Source of the DNA: an uncultured Sulfurovum sp.
GTDB lineage: Bacteria; Campylobacterota; Campylobacteria; Campylobacterales; Sulfurovaceae
Direction of reading: 5' to 3'
Assembly (NCBI GenBank): GCA_902727855.1
Contig: CACVAS010000036.1
Span: 62,001 to 126,000 of the forward strand
DNA: 64,000 bases
Shown here: positions 48,285-56,598 of the stretch, in pieces
Layout: each line of letters opens with the position of its first letter
Position numbering within the stretch: the first letter of the stretch is position 1
Notes under the pieces: generated by a model
Told to the model about the DNA's origin: nothing
The model's input: only the letters and a program-made list of their open reading frames with translations
Databases searched by the model: none
Translations under genes and position numbers: made by a program

Positions 48285-50552
48285 TCAAGAACTATCTAAA
48301 AAATATGCCACCTGCCCAAGAGCAACCCCTCCATCATTCGGAGGAATAGCATTGGAGATGACAGCCTCAGGAAATCTCTTAAGTACAAGACCCAAAAGCA
48401 CCCTATTTTGAAACACGCCACCACTGAGAACCATAGGTAAATCATACGGCTCATATACCTTAACTATCATCTCTACTAAAGTATGGAAAAACTTTGAGGT
48501 AGAGACAGTAGTATCTGTCTCAGAGAGCATCGCTTCTACTATAGGTAAGATGTTTATCTTCCCCTCTTCCATGCTAAAGTCATAATGCTCTTGCACACTA
48601 CCATCGTACAGCTCTTCAAGGAGCATACCACTCTCCCCCTCAAAGCTCATCACTTGTATGACACCTAGCAGTGAAGCTACGGCATCAAAGAGTCTTCCTA
48701 CCGAGGAGCTTAGTGGTGCATTAAGTCCTTTTTGCCATGCGAGGTAGTGGGTTTTGAGTTCTACATTATTAAAAGCTTGTATAGTTGCATTACCTGATAG
48801 GTGACTGAGCTTGTCGAAGTCCAATACCTCTTCACCATAGAGGTCAAACAGCAAAGAAAGTGCCACACGTCTTGGCTCTTTGATGGCTTTGGCACCGCCT
48901 AGTAGTTTGAAGTACTTAAGATGTGCCACACGTTCAAACCCAGTGTAGTCACACACCATAAACTCACCACCCCACAAGTTTCCATCGTCTCCATACCCAG
49001 TACCATCAAATACCACACCAAACACTTTACCTCTAAGTTTTTTTTCTGCCATCACACCTAAGATATGCGCATAGTGGTGTTGTACTTCGACACGCTCAGT
49101 CGCCGGTGTAGTATTAGGTTCCTGATCCTGTCGAAGGATGGCATACTTTGTACTCTCATAGTTTGGGTGTTTATCATGGGCTATAAGCGTTGGGTTAAAA
49201 CTGTAGATGCGTTCAAGAGACTCTATGTTCTTTCTAAAGTATTCTATTGACTCTATGGAGTCCAAGTCTCCAATGTGAGGAGAGAGGATGACTTGATTAT
49301 CAAACCCTATGGCTACCGTACTCTTTTGGTTGGCACCCAAGGCTAGTACATGTTCACTCAGTGGCTTTGCTAGGCTGATACTAGCAGGGGCATACCCTCT
49401 TGCACGACGTAAGATGACTTCTTGACCCCCCACCACCATCACCACTGAGTCATCACACCCATTGACTATGACGCGGTTGTGCGCTAACACATAGTCATAC
49501 ACTCCTTGGAGTTTCTCTAAAGATTCTAGGTTGGTACAGATGGGTTCGTCCGTCACGTTCGCAGACGTAGCAACCAGTGGTCTTTGAAGTTCATCTAAAA
49601 GTAATAGATGTAGTGGTGTGTAGGGAAGGAAGAGTCCTAACCTAGAAATATTGGGGGCAATCTGTAGGGGCAATCCCTCGTGGTTGCCCTTGGATTGCAA
49701 CAAAACAATTGGTCTCTCTTTAGAAGTCAATAACCTCTCTTCATGTTGAGAAAGCTCAGCAAATTTCCCAGCCATCTGTATGTCTCTGACCATCACGGCA
49801 AAAGGTTTACTTGGTCTTCTTTTTCTTTGGCGAAGTGTTTCTATAGCCTCTGCATTGGTAGCATCACACATGAGGTGGTAACCGCCTACCCCTTTCACTG
49901 CTACAATGTTACCTTCTTTGAGTAGCTCTGCAACTTTTTCTACTCCTCTAGGTTTTTCTAGCACATTGCCTTGGTTATCTCGTAGTTCTAGTGTAGGACC
50001 ACACTCATAACACCCTATGGGTTGTGCATGGTAGCGTCTGTCTAGTGGATTAGAGTACTCCTCTTTACACACCTCACACATCTTAAAAAACTTCATAGAG
50101 GTATGTACCCTGTCATAAGGAAGGTCGTAGATGATAGAGTAACGTACCCCACATTGTGTACAAGTTATAAATGGATATTTATAGCGTCGATTGGTCGGGT
50201 CAAAAAGTTCTTCTTCACACTGGCTACATACACTCACATCTGGTGGGATGCGTACAGTCACTTCTCCTTCATCTTCAGTGCTGATGATCTGAAAGTCATC
50301 AAAAGAGATGGTGTCTATCTGTGTGGTGGTTAGTTTGTCTATACTTGCAAGTGGGGGAAGTTCTTCTTTGATGGCTAGTACAAATGTCTCTAACAGGGTC
50401 TCTGTGGTGGTGATGACTATCTCTACGCCATGGGTGCCATTAAGTACGGTACCTTTAAGTGCATATCTGCCTGCCAGTGTGTAGATGAAAGGACGAAATC
50501 CTACACCTTGTACGGTGCCTTCCATGCATATCTTATAAGTAGAAGGTTCCAT
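48285..50552 (-). CDS. hypF: Carbamoyltransferase HypF with repeat-encoded segments
   Basis: 755 residues. Order: acylphosphatase domain (1-90; Gly-Val-Gly-Phe-Arg-Pro near 18), HypF zinc fingers (CxxC pairs about 109-175), YrdC-like domain (about 200-390), Kae1-like carbamoyltransferase (about 395-755) with Val-Gln-His-His-Tyr-Ala-His metal residues and Ser-Gly-Gly-Val-Phe-Gln-Asn. It carbamoylates HypE from carbamoyl phosphate. Odd: three stretches of its coding DNA match dispersed repeats (48803-48822, 49085-49141, 49664-49689) and encode small insertions; the reading frame stays open. It is the last gene after hydE. Confidence 0.93.
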   Translation of the reverse strand: MEPSTYKICMEGTVQGVGFRPFIYTLAGRYALKGTVLNGTHGVEIVITTTETLLETFVLAIKEELPPLASIDKLTTTQIDTISFDDFQIISTEDEGEVTVRIPPDVSVCSQCEEELFDPTNRRYKYPFITCTQCGVRYSIIYDLPYDRVHTSMKFFKMCEVCKEEYSNPLDRRYHAQPIGCYECGPTLELRDNQGNVLEKPRGVEKVAELLKEGNIVAVKGVGGYHLMCDATNAEAIETLRQRKRRPSKPFAVMVRDIQMAGKFAELSQHEERLLTSKERPIVLLQSKGNHEGLPLQIAPNISRLGLFLPYTPLHLLLLDELQRPLVATSANVTDEPICTNLESLEKLQGVYDYVLAHNRVIVNGCDDSVVMVVGGQEVILRRARGYAPASISLAKPLSEHVLALGANQKSTVAIGFDNQVILSPHIGDLDSIESIEYFRKNIESLERIYSFNPTLIAHDKHPNYESTKYAILRQDQEPNTTPATERVEVQHHYAHILGVMAEKKLRGKVFGVVFDGTGYGDDGNLWGGEFMVCDYTGFERVAHLKYFKLLGGAKAIKEPRRVALSLLFDLYGEEVLDFDKLSHLSGNATIQAFNNVELKTHYLAWQKGLNAPLSSSVGRLFDAVASLLGVIQVMSFEGESGMLLEELYDGSVQEHYDFSMEEGKINILPIVEAMLSETDTTVSTSKFFHTLVEMIVKVYEPYDLPMVLSGGVFQNRVLLGLVLKRFPEAVISNAIPPNDGGVALGQVAYFLDSS
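48803..48822. repeat. TTCGACA/TCAG palindromic repeat half inside hypF
   Basis: Reads TTCGACAAGCTCAG on the coding strand and encodes Phe-Asp-Lys-Leu-Ser. Related halves are at 49085-49106 and 49121-49141. Such TTCGACA..TCAG sequences are, from memory, a frequent dispersed repeat in other bacterial genomes. Confidence 0.5.
49085..49141. repeat. Inverted TTCGACA/TCAG repeat pair inside hypF
   Basis: Two 15-base arms (CTTCGACACGCTCAG and the inverse CTGATCCTGTCGAAG; 13 of 15 match when inverted) flank about 21 bases. On the coding strand the pair encodes a segment from about Leu-Arg-Gln-Asp-Gln to Ala-Thr-Glu-Arg-Val-Glu, just before the metal-binding His-His-Tyr-Ala-His of the Kae1 domain. 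Confidence 0.65.
49664..49689. repeat. GTAGGG-type hairpin repeat inside hypF
   Basis: GTAGGG, stem GGGCAA/TTGCCC plus CC/GG with a short loop: the same plan as 2629-2654. Read on the coding strand it encodes about nine residues (Gly-Asn-His-Glu-Gly-Leu-Pro-Leu) in the YrdC-like domain of HypF without breaking the frame. Confidence 0.6.
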
Positions 50553-50632: not shown

Positions 50633-52444
50633 TTATACTTCACTACCAAGGGTTATGGCTCCCAATGTAACATTGGCACCATCCACACTCAAACGCTCAT
50701 TTCTATAGATAGGATAGTTCACACTCAACGCATTGTAGGTACGCATGAGTAGCTGACGGTTTTCAAAGAGTCCACCACTGAGCGTGACCCCTTCTGTACC
50801 AATATTTGCATCAGCATCTTCTGCCTGTTGTGCTAAGAAATCGGCCAAAGAGTCTATAAATCCAAAACTTAAAAGATAATCATCAAGTCCAGCAAGCTTA
50901 AAACTCATGGCTGAACGAATGGCAAGCCGACTATCTAACTGGTATCCTTCTTCAGTAGCAATGACCTTATAGTCAATACGTGGCCCAGATTTCCCTCCAA
51001 ATTCTATGGCAGTGGCTTCTAGTACTTCACAAGATTTCATAGCATCATCACCCTCGTAAAGTCCTATGAATGAAGCAGCCATCGCCCAAACCTTAGTGAC
51101 ATCAGAGATATCTGTATGATGAATAAACTGTTGTCTTTCTATCTTTTCATAAAGTTCAGGAAAAGCATTTTTAAAGTTTTGAACTAACCGTGTTCCCCCT
51201 TCATCCATACCTTCAATAGCTCTTAACATATCACGTTGTTGGATGATATCTTCATCCCTAAAAAGCACCATCGGTGTATACCCTATCTTTTTTGAAAAAG
51301 AAAAGATATGTGACTGATACGCACGGCTAAGGTGTATACCACACAAAGATTTACCCTCTAGTTGATGTTCCACTACAACAGAACGCTGAGCTGCATGGGC
51401 CGATTCAAAAGATATGGCATTTTTTTCTTGTATTTTTTCACTGTTGGCAACATAACGAATAAAAGGTTTATCTTTTAAGTCAATGTTTCTATCTACATGT
51501 AATCCATGGCTATTTCCAAAGGCTTGAAAAGCATCATATGCACAAAATGAAGGGTTTTTCAAGCGCATAGAAACATGACATGGCAACATGTCACGCCCTT
51601 GTTTGATAATAAGATGCTCTTCTAACGCAGATGCCACACGAAGTGTCGGTATTTTATCACTAAAGACAGCATCGATACCTTTATTTTTGAGAGCTATAGA
51701 AAATGCTAAAGTGATCTTGTCATCAGGAAAAAAGAGTGGATAAAAAGGATCTTCAAGTTCTTGTTCCACGCGAAACATTAACTTAGGTTTTAAACGTATG
51801 GAGGGTTTTTCTACCATCATTAAAGCATCTAACTCTCCTTGGGTAATAAGAAAGTTTTTAGATAACTCTGTAGGGTTACAATACAAAACCCCTTCTAGTT
51901 CAACTGTTTTTTCATCTAATAGCGAAAAATGTCTTACTCCATTATACGTAGGAAGTGTGATTTCACCTTGCTTGATTAAAACCTCTGCTGCTTGATTAAA
52001 AAATGTTTCTGCTGTTGATGCAACAATATTGGTTACTGAGATGAGTTCTTTTAAACTAAGTGATGTACCACTAAACCCACAAACATTACATGGATTAAAA
52101 GGATTAAGTGAAGATACAACATGCTCTTGACATTCAGGACAGTAAGGCACTTTAAAAGGAGTAGAAGCATCTAATAGTTGTAAAACTACTTTTTCTTCAT
52201 CCTCTTCTTTATCTACCGCTTCTATCTTATAATCTTTTAAAAAAAGTGATTGTGGCACAAGTGAAGATATTTGCTCTGCCAGTGTTTCAAGCGTAGGCTG
52301 ATCTCCAGAAGCTTCTATCGTATACGTATGTCCCTCACTATAAAGACGAAGAGAAGTGTCAGAGCTCTCTTCAATACGTTTTAACAGCCGTGTAAAAAGT
52401 CCATTGTCATGGATGTATTCAAATTTAAACGCTATATGCATCAA
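50633..52444 (-). CDS. hydE: HydE hydrogenase accessory protein, HypF-like
   Basis: 603 residues, the fifth hyd gene as in Wolinella and H. pylori, where hydE is needed for active enzyme. Seen: a zinc-finger pair (Cys-Pro-Glu-Cys and Cys-Asn-Val-Cys near residues 101-119), a stretch like the HypF YrdC region (Glu-Lys-Pro-Ser-Ile), and a Kae1-like end with Ser-Gly-Gly-Leu-Phe-Glu-Asn, parallel to HypF. It lacks the acylphosphatase head and the His-His-Tyr-Ala-His metal site, so it is a degenerate HypF paralogue and probably non-catalytic. It overlaps hydD by 20 bases. Confidence 0.85.
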   Translation of the reverse strand: MMHIAFKFEYIHDNGLFTRLLKRIEESSDTSLRLYSEGHTYTIEASGDQPTLETLAEQISSLVPQSLFLKDYKIEAVDKEEDEEKVVLQLLDASTPFKVPYCPECQEHVVSSLNPFNPCNVCGFSGTSLSLKELISVTNIVASTAETFFNQAAEVLIKQGEITLPTYNGVRHFSLLDEKTVELEGVLYCNPTELSKNFLITQGELDALMMVEKPSIRLKPKLMFRVEQELEDPFYPLFFPDDKITLAFSIALKNKGIDAVFSDKIPTLRVASALEEHLIIKQGRDMLPCHVSMRLKNPSFCAYDAFQAFGNSHGLHVDRNIDLKDKPFIRYVANSEKIQEKNAISFESAHAAQRSVVVEHQLEGKSLCGIHLSRAYQSHIFSFSKKIGYTPMVLFRDEDIIQQRDMLRAIEGMDEGGTRLVQNFKNAFPELYEKIERQQFIHHTDISDVTKVWAMAASFIGLYEGDDAMKSCEVLEATAIEFGGKSGPRIDYKVIATEEGYQLDSRLAIRSAMSFKLAGLDDYLLSFGFIDSLADFLAQQAEDADANIGTEGVTLSGGLFENRQLLMRTYNALSVNYPIYRNERLSVDGANVTLGAITLGSEV

Positions 52445-52973
52445 GTGCCCTAAATGAATTTGGAAGAATCGCTTGCATATCTATCTCAGCTTTTTTCATG
52501 GCTTTAATGTTTAGCGTTTGCAAATAATCTAAAAGTGTTTGCTCCATGAGTGGGACAGCCTCTGCCACACCCTCAGAAAGGGAAAACTCTGTAGCCTCTA
52601 TGACTGTAGGAACCACACCCATAATCATCGTAGAAGGACGGTCACCTGCTAAATCCATCATATTGAGTGTTTGTAACATCTCAACTTCATGGGCACTCCC
52701 TTGCCAATCTACCGCGTCAGGCACAGCGTCAAAGTCAAAAAAATAGACTTCTCCTGCGTTCACACCTTTAGCATTAATGGTATCAATAATTATAAGATGG
52801 TCATACCCCACAATGATAGGAATAAGTCTCTGTGCCAGTGTACCACCATCGACTATGTCAATATCATGTTCTCCCTTAAAGTCATACTTTTCACCCATAT
52901 ACTTGATGAAATGCACACCAATGCCTTCATCTCCAAAAAGAAGATTACCAATACCTAGGACTAATATTTTCAC
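52425..52973 (-). CDS. hydD: Hydrogenase large-subunit endopeptidase HydD
   Basis: 182 residues of the HyaD/HybD family. Gly-Ile-Gly-Asn-Leu near the start and the nickel-sensing Glu/Asp residues (Glu17 in Gly-Asp-Glu-Gly-Ile-Gly; Asp near 63 in Ile-Ile-Asp-Thr) are in place. It removes the C-terminal tail of HydB after nickel insertion. The ATG overlaps hydC by 4 bases. Confidence 0.93.
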   Translation of the reverse strand: MKILVLGIGNLLFGDEGIGVHFIKYMGEKYDFKGEHDIDIVDGGTLAQRLIPIIVGYDHLIIIDTINAKGVNAGEVYFFDFDAVPDAVDWQGSAHEVEMLQTLNMMDLAGDRPSTMIMGVVPTVIEATEFSLSEGVAEAVPLMEQTLLDYLQTLNIKAMKKAEIDMQAILPNSFRALDAYSV

Positions 52974-53689
52974 TTATCGTCTTCTTTTTTCTCATTATCT
53001 TTTTTATCTTCATCTTTTTTTAGATGATAGTCATACCCTGTAAACATCACATCCAATGCGCCATGCTTAAAGCGAATAGCAGACCAAATCACCAAATAGA
53101 TATGAATGGGGATAAAAATCAAATATCCCCACATCGTAATATGATGGATATAACGTACATTTGCAAGTCCACCCATCCACGCTTCAAGCACACGCATAGA
53201 GTCATATAACAAACCACCCACACCTTGATGATAGACATGGACATAAAGTATAAGTCCTGTCACTGACGCCACGACAACTAAAACCATAATGGCAAAGTAG
53301 GTCAGAAATTGTAAAGGACCATAAAAACCTTTTTTACGCAATTCTCCTATAAAAAAATATGACTTCAATTGTGTAATCCAAGACTTTATACTAAAAACAT
53401 CTTTAAGTGAACGTAATTCTCCCTCACTGTCTTTGCCAAAAAAGAACAGATAAATTCTAAGCATCCCAGAAGAAATCAAAATAAATCCTAAAATAATATG
53501 CCAATTTGTCCACTCGGCATAAAGAAGTTTATCGGTTGAACCTTCAGGTGAAAGAAATGGATCTGCTATGTAAAAACCGGTAATAATTAACCCTGTGATA
53601 ACTAAAGCACGTATCCAGTGTAAAATCCTATTACCACTACTGTAGACAAAATCTGGGTGGTCTGAGGTATATTTTTCTTCTTGTCCCAT
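52970..53689 (-). CDS. hydC: Hydrogenase b-type cytochrome subunit HydC
   Basis: 239 residues with four transmembrane helices (about 26-45, 65-85, 125-150, 180-205) and heme-b histidines in His-Trp-Ile-Arg near 24, His-Ile-Ile-Leu near 65, a late Tyr-Ile-His-His and Ile-His-Ile-Tyr. It passes electrons from HydA to menaquinone. The tail is Lys/Asp/Glu-rich. Confidence 0.94.
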   Translation of the reverse strand: MGQEEKYTSDHPDFVYSSGNRILHWIRALVITGLIITGFYIADPFLSPEGSTDKLLYAEWTNWHIILGFILISSGMLRIYLFFFGKDSEGELRSLKDVFSIKSWITQLKSYFFIGELRKKGFYGPLQFLTYFAIMVLVVVASVTGLILYVHVYHQGVGGLLYDSMRVLEAWMGGLANVRYIHHITMWGYLIFIPIHIYLVIWSAIRFKHGALDVMFTGYDYHLKKDEDKKDNEKKEDDK

Positions 53690-53730: not shown

Positions 53731-55449
53731 CTAACAAGCAGCACCACTACTCATAGGGTTGACTTTAAATTCGCTAAGCTCCGTACCCTTCATATCCATC
53801 ACATGTACAGAACATGACATACATGGATCAAACGAATGAATGACCCTTAGTACTTCTAGTGGCTTTTTAGGATCTTCAAGTTTTAACCCAACTAAAGATG
53901 CTTCGTATGGTCCAATGGTTCCATTGGCATCTATGGGGCCAGCATTCCATGTAGTAGGCACCACTGCTTGATAATTCTCAATCAAGCCATTCTTTATGCG
54001 CACCCAATGACTAAGTGTTCCACGAGGCACTTCACCAATGAAACGTCCCGTATACTCTTTATCTGGATCTATCTCAAATTTGGTATAGGTACTGTCGTCT
54101 GTTTTTAAATTCTCTATTAATGAGTCAAAAATCGTAATCGCATTATCTGAAATGAGTTTGGTTTGTAACATACGTGCTGCGGTACGTCCTAATGTTGTAA
54201 AAAGTGCACCAACTGGTAAACCTGTACGTTTAAGAAAACCTCCTACTTCAGCCTGAACTTTTTCATTGCCTCTAGCATAGTTTACAAGTAGACAGGAGAG
54301 TGGTCCAACTTCCATCGCTTCACTATCATAACGTGGTGCTTTTACCCAAGAATATTTTGCATTTTCATCAATGATTTTTGCCTCACCATTCACTGTGTCA
54401 CCATCTATAAAACCAGTATAGTCAGGATCAGTGACACCATCATACGGTTGTAGTGGTTTTGTACCTTTATACCAAGCATGTGTCACATCTTCTTCTATCT
54501 TCATATCATCTATGTCAAACACTTGACTCAAGTCACCATCTTTGATGTATCCACTTTGAAAAAGATGCTCTGTACGGTTAAGCATAAATGCTTCACCTGC
54601 CATGAAGTTTTTCACGCCTACGCCACCAAGTACGGTCTCTTCGGCACCATATGCTTCTGCAGCCATCACGATATCTGCTTGATACGCACGGTCAATAAAA
54701 TCTTTAACTATTTTATATTTCTCTCTCCACTGAGAGAGTCTTGTAGGACTTAGTATGTCACGCACACATGTCACACCGCCCACCACAAGACTTTGAGGAT
54801 GTGGCTGTTTCGCACCAAAAATGGCAAACATCTGTGCTGCTACACGTTGTACTTCAAGTGCTTTTAAGTAGTGAGAAAGTGCGATAAGGTTTTGCTCTGG
54901 TGAAAACTTATAGGTGCCATTACCCCAATACGCATTGGCAAATGGCCCAAGTTGTCCTTTATCTACAAATGTTTTTACACGCTGTTGTACAGCTTTAAGT
55001 TCATCCGTACCCGTTGCAATTGGTAAATCTGCATATTTAAACGCCAACTTTGATGCTTTTTCAGGGTCAGCACTGAGTGCTGAGACTACATCGACCCAAT
55101 CAAGTCCATGGAGATGATAAAAATGTACCACATGGTCATGCATATAGAGTGAGGCATTAAGCAGTGAACGAACCAACTTCGCATTATACGGTGCCTCTAC
55201 ACCTAAAGCATCTTCTACGGCCTCTACACCTGCCTTATAGTGTGAATAGGTACATACCCCACAAATACGCTGTGCCATAAGTCCTGCATCACGAGGATCA
55301 CGCCCTTTTAAAATAAGTTCTATCCCTCTCCATAGCGTGGAGGAGGAGTAGGCTTTTTGCACTACATTATTCTCATCTACCTCAACTTCAATACGTAGAT
55401 GCCCTTCAATTCTTGTTATTGGATCAATTACTACACGTCTGTTAGCCAT
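53731..55449 (-). CDS. hydB: NiFe-hydrogenase large subunit HydB
   Basis: 572 residues, group 1 uptake type. The N-terminal nickel motif Arg-Ile-Cys-Gly-Val-Cys near residue 61 and the C-terminal Asp-Pro-Cys-Met-Ser-Cys-Ser-Val-His bind the active site. A 23-residue tail after that His should be removed by HydD. It lies 3 bases after hydA. It splits H2 in the periplasm. Confidence 0.97.
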   Translation of the reverse strand: MANRRVVIDPITRIEGHLRIEVEVDENNVVQKAYSSSTLWRGIELILKGRDPRDAGLMAQRICGVCTYSHYKAGVEAVEDALGVEAPYNAKLVRSLLNASLYMHDHVVHFYHLHGLDWVDVVSALSADPEKASKLAFKYADLPIATGTDELKAVQQRVKTFVDKGQLGPFANAYWGNGTYKFSPEQNLIALSHYLKALEVQRVAAQMFAIFGAKQPHPQSLVVGGVTCVRDILSPTRLSQWREKYKIVKDFIDRAYQADIVMAAEAYGAEETVLGGVGVKNFMAGEAFMLNRTEHLFQSGYIKDGDLSQVFDIDDMKIEEDVTHAWYKGTKPLQPYDGVTDPDYTGFIDGDTVNGEAKIIDENAKYSWVKAPRYDSEAMEVGPLSCLLVNYARGNEKVQAEVGGFLKRTGLPVGALFTTLGRTAARMLQTKLISDNAITIFDSLIENLKTDDSTYTKFEIDPDKEYTGRFIGEVPRGTLSHWVRIKNGLIENYQAVVPTTWNAGPIDANGTIGPYEASLVGLKLEDPKKPLEVLRVIHSFDPCMSCSVHVMDMKGTELSEFKVNPMSSGAAC

Positions 55450-55452
55450 AAT

Positions 55453-56598
55453 CTACCCCTCCTTCTCATCATTCTTATTCATAAAAATACTTGCCACTGC
55501 ATGTGCCCCTATACCTACAACCGTTGCAGTTAAAAGTGTGGTACCTATCTTATCAACCGTGGCATTAAGACCCATCACAAGGTGTGACTGTATAGGTTTT
55601 TCCAGTGGCCCCATGGTATCCCAGAAGTCTGGTTCTGAACATCCCATACATCCGTGCCCTGCACCTATGGGCCAGTTAACATGCTGGTTAAACCGCTCCG
55701 TTGAACAGTTGTTAAAGGTATATGGTCCTTTACACCCTTGTTTATAGAGACACCATCCATCTTTTGCACCATCATCACCAAAGGTCTCTACAAACTCTCC
55801 GGCATCAAAGTGCCCACGTCTTTCACACAAGTCATGTATACGGTTACCATAGGCCCATTTTGGACGACTATAACGGTCAAGCGCAGGGAGTGTACCAAAG
55901 AGTAAATAGTGCATGAGTGTACCCACAATGTTTGATGCACTTGGCGGACAACCCGGCACATTAATCACTGGTTGAGAAACAACCTTATCTACTCCCTTAG
56001 CGCCTGTAGGATTGGGAGCAGCCGCTTGGATACCACCAAAACTAGAACAAGTACCTATGGAGAAAATAGCAGCCGCATCTTTAGCCGCAGCAGTTACCAC
56101 ATCGAGTCCAGTTCTACCATGAGCACCCAATGTCAAGTATTGACCATTATTCGCTGTTGGTACACCACCTTCCACAAGTAAGACATAACGTCCTTTATAC
56201 TTCTCTAAAGCATTGTCAAGGTTTTCTTCTGCTTGCCAACCTGCAGCTGCCATGAGTGTTTCATGGTACTCAAGAGAGATATAATCAAAAATAAGAGAAT
56301 CAATCGTAGGAGCATCAGAACGAATGAGTGACTCACTACATCCTGTACACTCCGCCATATGTAGCCACACAAGAGGTACACGGTCTGCAAGTTTTGCAGC
56401 TTCTGCGAACAAAGGAGTAAATTGTGTGGGTAGAGCAAGCATTGCTGTGACACCTGCTGCCCACTTCATGAAATCACGTCGTTCTATACCTCTATCTTCA
56501 AGCATCTGTTCAACTGACTCTTCCTTTATAGAAGGTAATTCAGACAACGCCTTCACACGTTTCTTTGCTTTCTCAAATAATGCATCAAATCCACTCAT
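55453..56598 (-). CDS. hydA: NiFe-hydrogenase small subunit HydA
   Basis: 381 residues with a Tat signal (Arg-Arg-Asp-Phe-Met-Lys near 40-45) behind an unusually long hydrophilic head, then the FeS core: Glu-Cys-Thr-Gly-Cys-Ser-Glu near 83-89 (proximal cluster), further cysteines through the C-terminal half for medial and distal clusters, and a C-terminal hydrophobic anchor (about 350-372). It carries the three FeS clusters from HydB to HydC. A strong AAGGAG precedes the ATG. Confidence 0.96.
   Translation of the reverse strand: MSGFDALFEKAKKRVKALSELPSIKEESVEQMLEDRGIERRDFMKWAAGVTAMLALPTQFTPLFAEAAKLADRVPLVWLHMAECTGCSESLIRSDAPTIDSLIFDYISLEYHETLMAAAGWQAEENLDNALEKYKGRYVLLVEGGVPTANNGQYLTLGAHGRTGLDVVTAAAKDAAAIFSIGTCSSFGGIQAAAPNPTGAKGVDKVVSQPVINVPGCPPSASNIVGTLMHYLLFGTLPALDRYSRPKWAYGNRIHDLCERRGHFDAGEFVETFGDDGAKDGWCLYKQGCKGPYTFNNCSTERFNQHVNWPIGAGHGCMGCSEPDFWDTMGPLEKPIQSHLVMGLNATVDKIGTTLLTATVVGIGAHAVASIFMNKNDEKEG

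Follow-up and report, generated by a model that had tools for sequence, protein, structure and literature searches.

Palindromic repeats that are translated as part of a protein are best known from Rickettsia and, beyond that, as a minority among REPs, judging by the consulted portions of PMC2229807 and PMC3733652. The Rickettsia palindromic elements (RPEs) are dispersed palindromic repeats that lie in frame in genes for conserved proteins (excerpts of PMC2229807 and PMC3733652), and in Rickettsia they measure 105-146 bp (excerpt of PMC2229807). Among REPs, the GTAG and CGTC types include short members that are translated within ORFs, with tRNA synthetase genes among their hosts; Sulfurovum NBC37-1 is listed as a host of both types, and two Xanthomonas recB genes carry different REPs at about the same site (excerpts of PMC3733652). 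The main text of that paper mentions neither hypF nor hydrogenase, and its consulted portion describes no heptamers within genes and no loop common to several families. In the literature searched, which covered few subscription papers, four 14-mers of the repeat core described below had no match, nothing related to the peptides PEPVEG, LRQAQG, FDKLRT, and LSLSKG was found, and the portions seen held no case of several repeat families sharing one loop. Intragenic REPs are thus already in print (excerpts of PMC3733652), and the extension presented here is the occurrence of unrelated repeats in the same loops of hypF, alaS, and murG.

The locus lies in a stretch of 64,000 nucleotides (the window) from an uncultured Sulfurovum sp., whose genome assembly comprises 3.1 Mb in 170 contigs with an estimated contamination of about 9%. 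The gene hypF (48285-50552, minus strand) encodes a carbamoyltransferase HypF of 755 aa, which scores 788 bits against the NCBIfam hypF equivalog TIGR00143 (cut-off 466) and contains the Pfam domains Acylphosphatase, zf-HYPF, Sua5_yciO_yrdC, HypF_C, and HypF_C_2. Its closest named relatives are metagenome bins (Sulfurovum sp., Campylobacteraceae, and similar) with an identity of at most 72%. The gene belongs to a run on the minus strand that encodes an adjoining HypF-like protein with a partial Kae1-like C-terminal subdomain (50633-52444; Pfam HypF_C_2, E 1.1e-9; no match in the NCBIfam search), a hydrogenase maturation protease (52425-52973; Pfam HycI), a hydrogenase cytochrome b subunit (52970-53689; Pfam Ni_hydr_CYTB), and the large (53731-55449; Pfam NiFeSe_Hases) and small (55453-56598; Pfam Oxidored_q6 and NiFe_hyd_SSU_C) subunits of a NiFe hydrogenase. 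Weak HypF-like matches at most a few kb from hypF, on the same contig, occur in at least ten related genomes.

Site A of this gene (49085-49136, minus strand) is a pair of inverted REP arms of the CTTCGACANGCTCAG type, with CTTCGACACGCTCAG at 49085-49099 (plus strand) and CTGATCCTGTCGAAG at 49122-49136. The arms are 87% complementary, lie 22 nt apart, span 52 bp in total, and are translated as LRQDQEPNTTPATERVE. A previous inspection of the letters alone (the sequence-only reading) had recognized the TTCGACA-type inverted pair and its first arm, both of which the arm alignment bears out; the second arm had been placed at 49127-49141, five bases off. The pair finishes in codon 490, immediately upstream of the invariant Q491, H492, H493, and H496 of the QHHYAH motif, in agreement with the claimed position just before the metal-binding histidines, these residues being the expected metal ligands. 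Site C (48798-48819, minus strand) comprises a single REP arm (48805-48819), translated as FDKLS within a 7-residue insertion. Its 14-base core at 48805-48818 (minus strand) corresponds to the third copy suspected near 48803-48822, and the 22-nt stretch 48798-48819 repeats 49115-49136 at 82%. Site B (49664-49689, minus strand) holds the GTAGGGG hairpin GTAGGGGCAATCCCTCGTGGTTGCCC, exactly where it had been located before, with a stem of 49668-49673 and 49684-49689 and the translation GNHEGLP. Site D (49950-49985, minus strand), a hairpin turn near residues 190-200, carries heptamer arrays or hairpins in relatives; no repeat was seen there in the window gene. A single uninterrupted frame of 755 codons spans hypF, repeats included, and the three REP arms are translated as LRQDQ, ERVE, and FDKLS, so that both the open HypF frame and the use of the motif in three frames or orientations hold as claimed.

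The GTAG element represents a different repeat family from the TTCGACA element. At site B, GTAG stands outside the stem at one end and is followed by a 6-bp stem, as in GTAG REPs (stem 6-13 bp), and the stems of this superfamily and of the copies found here change in pairs (by eye). The TTCGACA core, in contrast, shows no GTAG tag and does not clearly resemble the CGTC families. Its 29 copies in this genome, inspected by eye, do not show GTAG. TGTC, which is among the variants of the CGTC tag (excerpt of PMC3733652), does occur in the core, without the AT-starting stem that follows it in that description.

In an AlphaFold2 model of the window HypF (50-row alignment, mean pLDDT 91.3), the elements are predicted to fall within loops or at their margins. 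The helix 466-477 would end with the first arm of site A, and the rest of the site would form the loop that leads to strand 486-490 and the QHHYAH motif. Site B is modelled as the loop between strands 282-287 and 304-308, site C at the end of helix 560-577, and site D as a hairpin turn near 192-197. Averaged over ten residues, the confidence drops to 75-76 (site A), 74 (site C), and 81 (site B), and is lower still (67) at residues 91-100, which contain no repeat. Alignment of solved HypF chains reveals gaps at site A in 3vth, 4g9i, and 3tsp, and at site C in 3vth and 3tsp.

That the TTCGACA motif is a dispersed repeat, as the sequence-only reading had proposed, is confirmed by the genome-wide count: the 14-base core TTCGACANGCTCAG has 29 exact matches, its reversed control none. 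With up to three mismatches, the window alone yields 14 matches against 10.8 expected, and 22 of 100 shuffles reach 14; only exact and near-exact core matches stand out above chance. The 15-base form CTTCGACANGCTCAG was found in 23 of 80 genomes, all of the same genus (controls 0), and in none of 31 genomes of other genera. Inverted pairs are common among the copies, and by eye the bases flanking the core covary (CCC/GGG, GAC/GTC, GGC/GCC). Weak, mostly partial matches to the pair in 60 records of a plasmid collection, most frequently from Sphingobium (13), suggest that the motif is not restricted to the Sulfurovum-like genus. Ten core matches lie within 5.4 kb at G000:C30:53078-58452, some of them in hsdR, hsdM (type I restriction), and radC, and two loci on G000:C170 (L028, L029) contain the further repeat-like stretches GAGCGGAGTCGAAATG and CATTCCCGCGGAGGCGGGA beside the REP, stretches that are presumably widespread. 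Matches to the GTAG hairpin occur in 24 of 80 genomes (one control match); it is rare in this genome, with 2 matches to each of two patterns, and commoner in several related genomes. GTCGGGG hairpins were detected in 16 of 80 genomes (controls 0) and AATTAGG heptamer arrays, with at most two mismatches, in 31 of 80 (one control match). The matches to these three families all fall within the genus, save one heptamer match.

For comparison of the loops, HypF loci of 29 relatives, drawn from matches in 52 of 80 genomes, were aligned. A second set of 40 rows consisted of the window, 15 of the first 29 loci, and the nearer 32 in another set of 66 loci, minus 7 duplicates and the frameshifted L150; L043 and L150 contain stops (written X), and L042 has ambiguous bases. 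The limits of loops A, B, and D were drawn once the data had been inspected, and their contents were assigned by eye except for exact patterns and a period-7 detector. The REP pair at site A is shared by the window and two of the other rows (L037, L102). The same loop carries GTAG-type hairpins in L106 and L131 and heptamer arrays or their relics in L039, L040, L041/L116, L104, L113, L118, L127, L162, and L163; L033 and L111 look heptamer-like and were scored as plain, and the remaining rows are plain. Site B holds GTAG-type hairpins in the window, L033, L035, L046, L102, L104, and L106, the element thus standing at the orthologous place in several relatives, and heptamers in L039, L041/L116, and L118; some rows initially scored as plain (L103, L121) have GTCGGG-type hairpins. 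L113 and L131 carry there a palindrome of about 60 bp (GGTCAGGTGATTCATGATT...) in open frame, and L127 has one element (GGAATCGGAGGCTTYAGCCCCGA) in open frame at both sites B and C, which at C is different from and longer than that of the window. At site C, the 7 extra residues are peculiar to the window: no further HypF row that covers the site in either alignment has them. REP cores with at most two mismatches number 10 in the HypF rows against a mean of 1.0; eight of them lie at sites A and C, and the other two look like chance. Twelve period-7 arrays were detected, and none arose when the sequences were shuffled synonymously 20 times; because the masked columns of L116 and L041 are identical, 10 of the arrays are distinct. 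The insertions or loop replacements are absent from most of the relatives read, and in this respect, too, the sequence-only reading holds; of the two outcomes that it had named as refuting, neither came about.

The TTCGACA element therefore resembles RPEs, as had been suggested, in being dispersed, palindromic, in frame, and absent from most relatives. The likeness, drawn by description, does not extend to length, the elements here being either a pair of 52 bp or one arm of 15 nt, versus 105-146 bp in RPEs (excerpt of PMC2229807). The heptamer arrays have a parallel of their own. Bacterial heptamer tandem repeats are known as the STRR of cyanobacteria, which are likewise dispersed seven-base direct repeats. 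Those described here are mostly outside long ORFs (2 of 27 places inside); in contrast to STRR, some occupy, in frame, enzyme loops that REPs also use.

Two pairs of close relatives show how loop contents change. The sisters L102 and L103 are identical at 631 of 670 core residues and at 29 of 63 loop residues; L102 has a REP at A and a GTAG hairpin at B, L103 neither. By eye, about 30 loop bases are swapped for the REP, and GAAGTCC is common to the right end of the REP and the host sequence. At site A, the two rows differ by an exchange of the resident loop rather than by an insertion with a clean empty counterpart. The core dN/dS is 0.034/0.299 for this pair and 0.058/0.393 for L118/L121, indicating that the genes are still under constraint. 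On a HypF tree of 38 rows with the loop columns masked (L162 and L163 were left out as too short; all trees are quick ones), the states at site A need 3 changes for REP, 2 for GTAG, and 5 for heptamers, and all states at site B need 12, GTCGGG types being counted as plain. A single clade of the three hypF rows with REP is rejected (p-AU 4e-5).

The sequence-only reading had placed the emphasis on hypF and its metal site. The position before the histidines stands; the focus does not, since the same REP lies inside alaS, murG, dnaX, radC, pdxA, dxs, metG, cysS, carB, and others (in this genome, G014, or G044), and further in hsdR, hsdM, a DUF1302 gene, a uvrD-like gene, anmK, an FAD oxidoreductase gene, hisH, and folC. 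In the alaS set (30 loci from 49 genomes with matches; L191 was dropped as a wrong ORF), 29 rows were compared, and the loop after GGQVGD contains a REP in three of them, one copy being decayed, a GTCGGG-type hairpin in another three (one an exact pattern match), and a heptamer array in six (5 by the detector). Its states require 10 changes, and the REP rows as one clade are rejected (p-AU 1e-68). The murG set comprised 30 loci from 48 genomes, L209 lacking the region. In this genome, a REP pair lies close to the N-terminus of MurG, and in or beside the same insertion L221 and L222 carry detected heptamer arrays and L216 similar repeats (by eye). For dxs (30 loci from 77 genomes plus L253), a REP was found in 3 of 31 rows, again rejected as one clade (p 9e-5). 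The prediction, made before the dxs result was seen, that other families occur in this loop failed: by eye, the 28 rows without REP have no heptamer array and no GTAG or GTCGGG hairpin. In L353, L338, and L357 (dxs of G013, G041, and G022), the plain loop VAELVE(V/A) is encoded by DNA equal or similar to the right arm of the REP (GTGGCTGAGCTTGTCGAAG), and the CTTCGACANGCTCAG core matches at G013:C77:19054 and G041:C4:18888 are such plain dxs loops; this DNA is either a relic half-element or a chance match usable as a landing site. When five further genes of two REP-bearing genomes were compared, the site was common to four (ACC deaminase-like, dnaX, DUF1302, pdxA), and for the fifth, hsdR, the REP site of this genome has no counterpart in G014. 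The ACC deaminase-like ORFs belong to no Pfam family and reach NCBIfam models below cut-off only; the Pfam search with L231 gave no match.

How often the families lie inside genes was estimated from ORFs defined from stop to stop rather than from gene calls, a place being inside when it lies in an ORF of at least 200 aa and 15 aa from either end; places near the ends of stretches were excluded. REPs lie inside at 10 of 17 places in this genome (random positions 72%), 10 of 21 in G014 (20 stretches; 71%), 8 of 18 in G044 (19 stretches; 66%), and 15 of 26 among the 30 loci of the 15-base core search, which overlap the other sets (70%). For the three genomes taken together, the count is 28 of 56 places versus 746 of 1062 random positions (p 0.003), which indicates some depletion. 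REPs are nevertheless less depleted in ORFs than the three other families, with heptamers inside at 2 of 27 places (random 74%), GTAG at 6 of 26 (80%), and GTCGGG at 2 of 9 (79%). Five of the six frames of the core are free of stops, so most in-frame entries are translatable. Among 67 distinct arms inside long ORFs, the frames LRQAQ (18), STSSV (20), and ELVE (23) account for 61, FDKLS and LSLSK for three each, and the stop frame for none; the bias is significant in one orientation by chi-square (p 0.002) and in the other by a binomial test (p 9e-5), the arms of a pair not being independent. Site C uses the rare FDKLS frame.

The segments in hypF are quite probably short dispersed selfish repeats that entered the gene and are tolerated at loops with an open hydrophilic frame. 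The TTCGACA element is a REP-type palindrome, frequently a pair of inverted arms. Its copies would have entered hypF in or beside loops and left an open hydrophilic reading frame, and natural selection would purge copies in structured parts or in a greasy frame. Judged from sequence, HypF is presumably made and active and the insertion neutral, the inserted peptide being a passenger. Tolerant loops would collect other repeat families in other species, their contents turning over. As a guess, movement may rely on copying by a transposase, with the GAAGTC end providing microhomology. The genome has 8 matches to Y1 transposases, 7 of them above cut-off. Around the 8 loci, no core with at most two mismatches and no GTAG hairpin was found, the latter being a difference from the GTAG superfamily; one core match with three mismatches lies at 1 of 8 loci, and a RAYT flanked by the repeat was seen at 0 of 8. 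For the Y1 loci of this genome, a RAYT as the mover was rejected on these grounds. Counted against the reading as selfish repeats are the depletion of REPs in ORFs, the loop replacement between L102 and L103, the rare FDKLS frame at site C, the lack of a hairpin excess over whole genes, the failed dxs prediction, and the missing core at the Y1 loci.

A different account, possible though somewhat improbable, agrees on the nature of the segments and departs from the preferred reading on recurrence only: the repeat loops would have arisen on one or a few occasions, and short gene-conversion tracts would then have carried them from species to species. In favour of such swapping, none of hypF, alaS, and dxs has its REP-bearing rows in a single clade, the differences between the nearly identical L102 and L103 are concentrated mainly in the loops, and the window and L102 agree in stem variant and reading frame at site A. 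It fits less well with genomes whose sites often hold one family (L041 and L118 have heptamers at both A and D, and by eye at B) or with the single element at B and C of L127, which fits genome-specific repeat activity. The REP at site C is moreover seen in the window row only, and a comparison of L118 with L121 indicates by eye that the heptamer array at site D has grown in place from about two copies.

It is quite unlikely that the repeats are kept for a function as nucleic acid, i.e. as a DNA or mRNA hairpin, for protein binding, or for translational pausing between domains, with the peptide as a by-product. In favour of such a function are the paired variation of GTAG hairpin stems (by eye) and the strong fold of an intact REP pair from this genome (z -8.1). 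The hypF pair, however, folds less well (z -3.9; a 60-nt stretch of site A including flanks gives z -3.87), the same loops are filled by heptamer arrays in other species, and the frame bias acts at the protein level. Single REP arms fold no better than shuffles, 38 nt of site B including the flank reach z -2.05 (12 of 200 shuffles are equally good), and a local folding scan shows a weak peak at site B alone, 6 of 72 windows having z < -2.5. A hairpin excess as a general signal was rejected, as whole hypF genes of the 40 rows contain 58 hairpins versus 58.8 in synonymous shuffles. That the repeats have been co-opted as a source of useful loop variation in HypF and other enzymes is highly improbable, for although the same loops are hit repeatedly in several enzymes, one loop is filled by unrelated peptides of differing length and is plain in many rows.

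Beyond the reading as tolerated selfish repeats, it is a tentative and rather doubtful extension that certain loops of housekeeping enzymes in Sulfurovum-like bacteria are standing landing pads, which unrelated families enter, where they replace one another, and which they leave within the time that separates close species. Heptamer arrays, REPs, and hairpins may share an entry route, e.g. repeat- or microhomology-guided loop replacement. In this Sulfurovum-like genus, a REP family lies inside long ORFs at about half of its places (three genomes), which presents selfish DNA as a possible supplier of protein segments. Enzymes that occur naturally in two versions, one carrying an insertion and one lacking it, make the question of whether such a peptide is neutral, costly, or useful directly testable. 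If the loops do serve as landing pads, the sequence of a protein loop would be determined by the selfish repeats that are active in a given genome.
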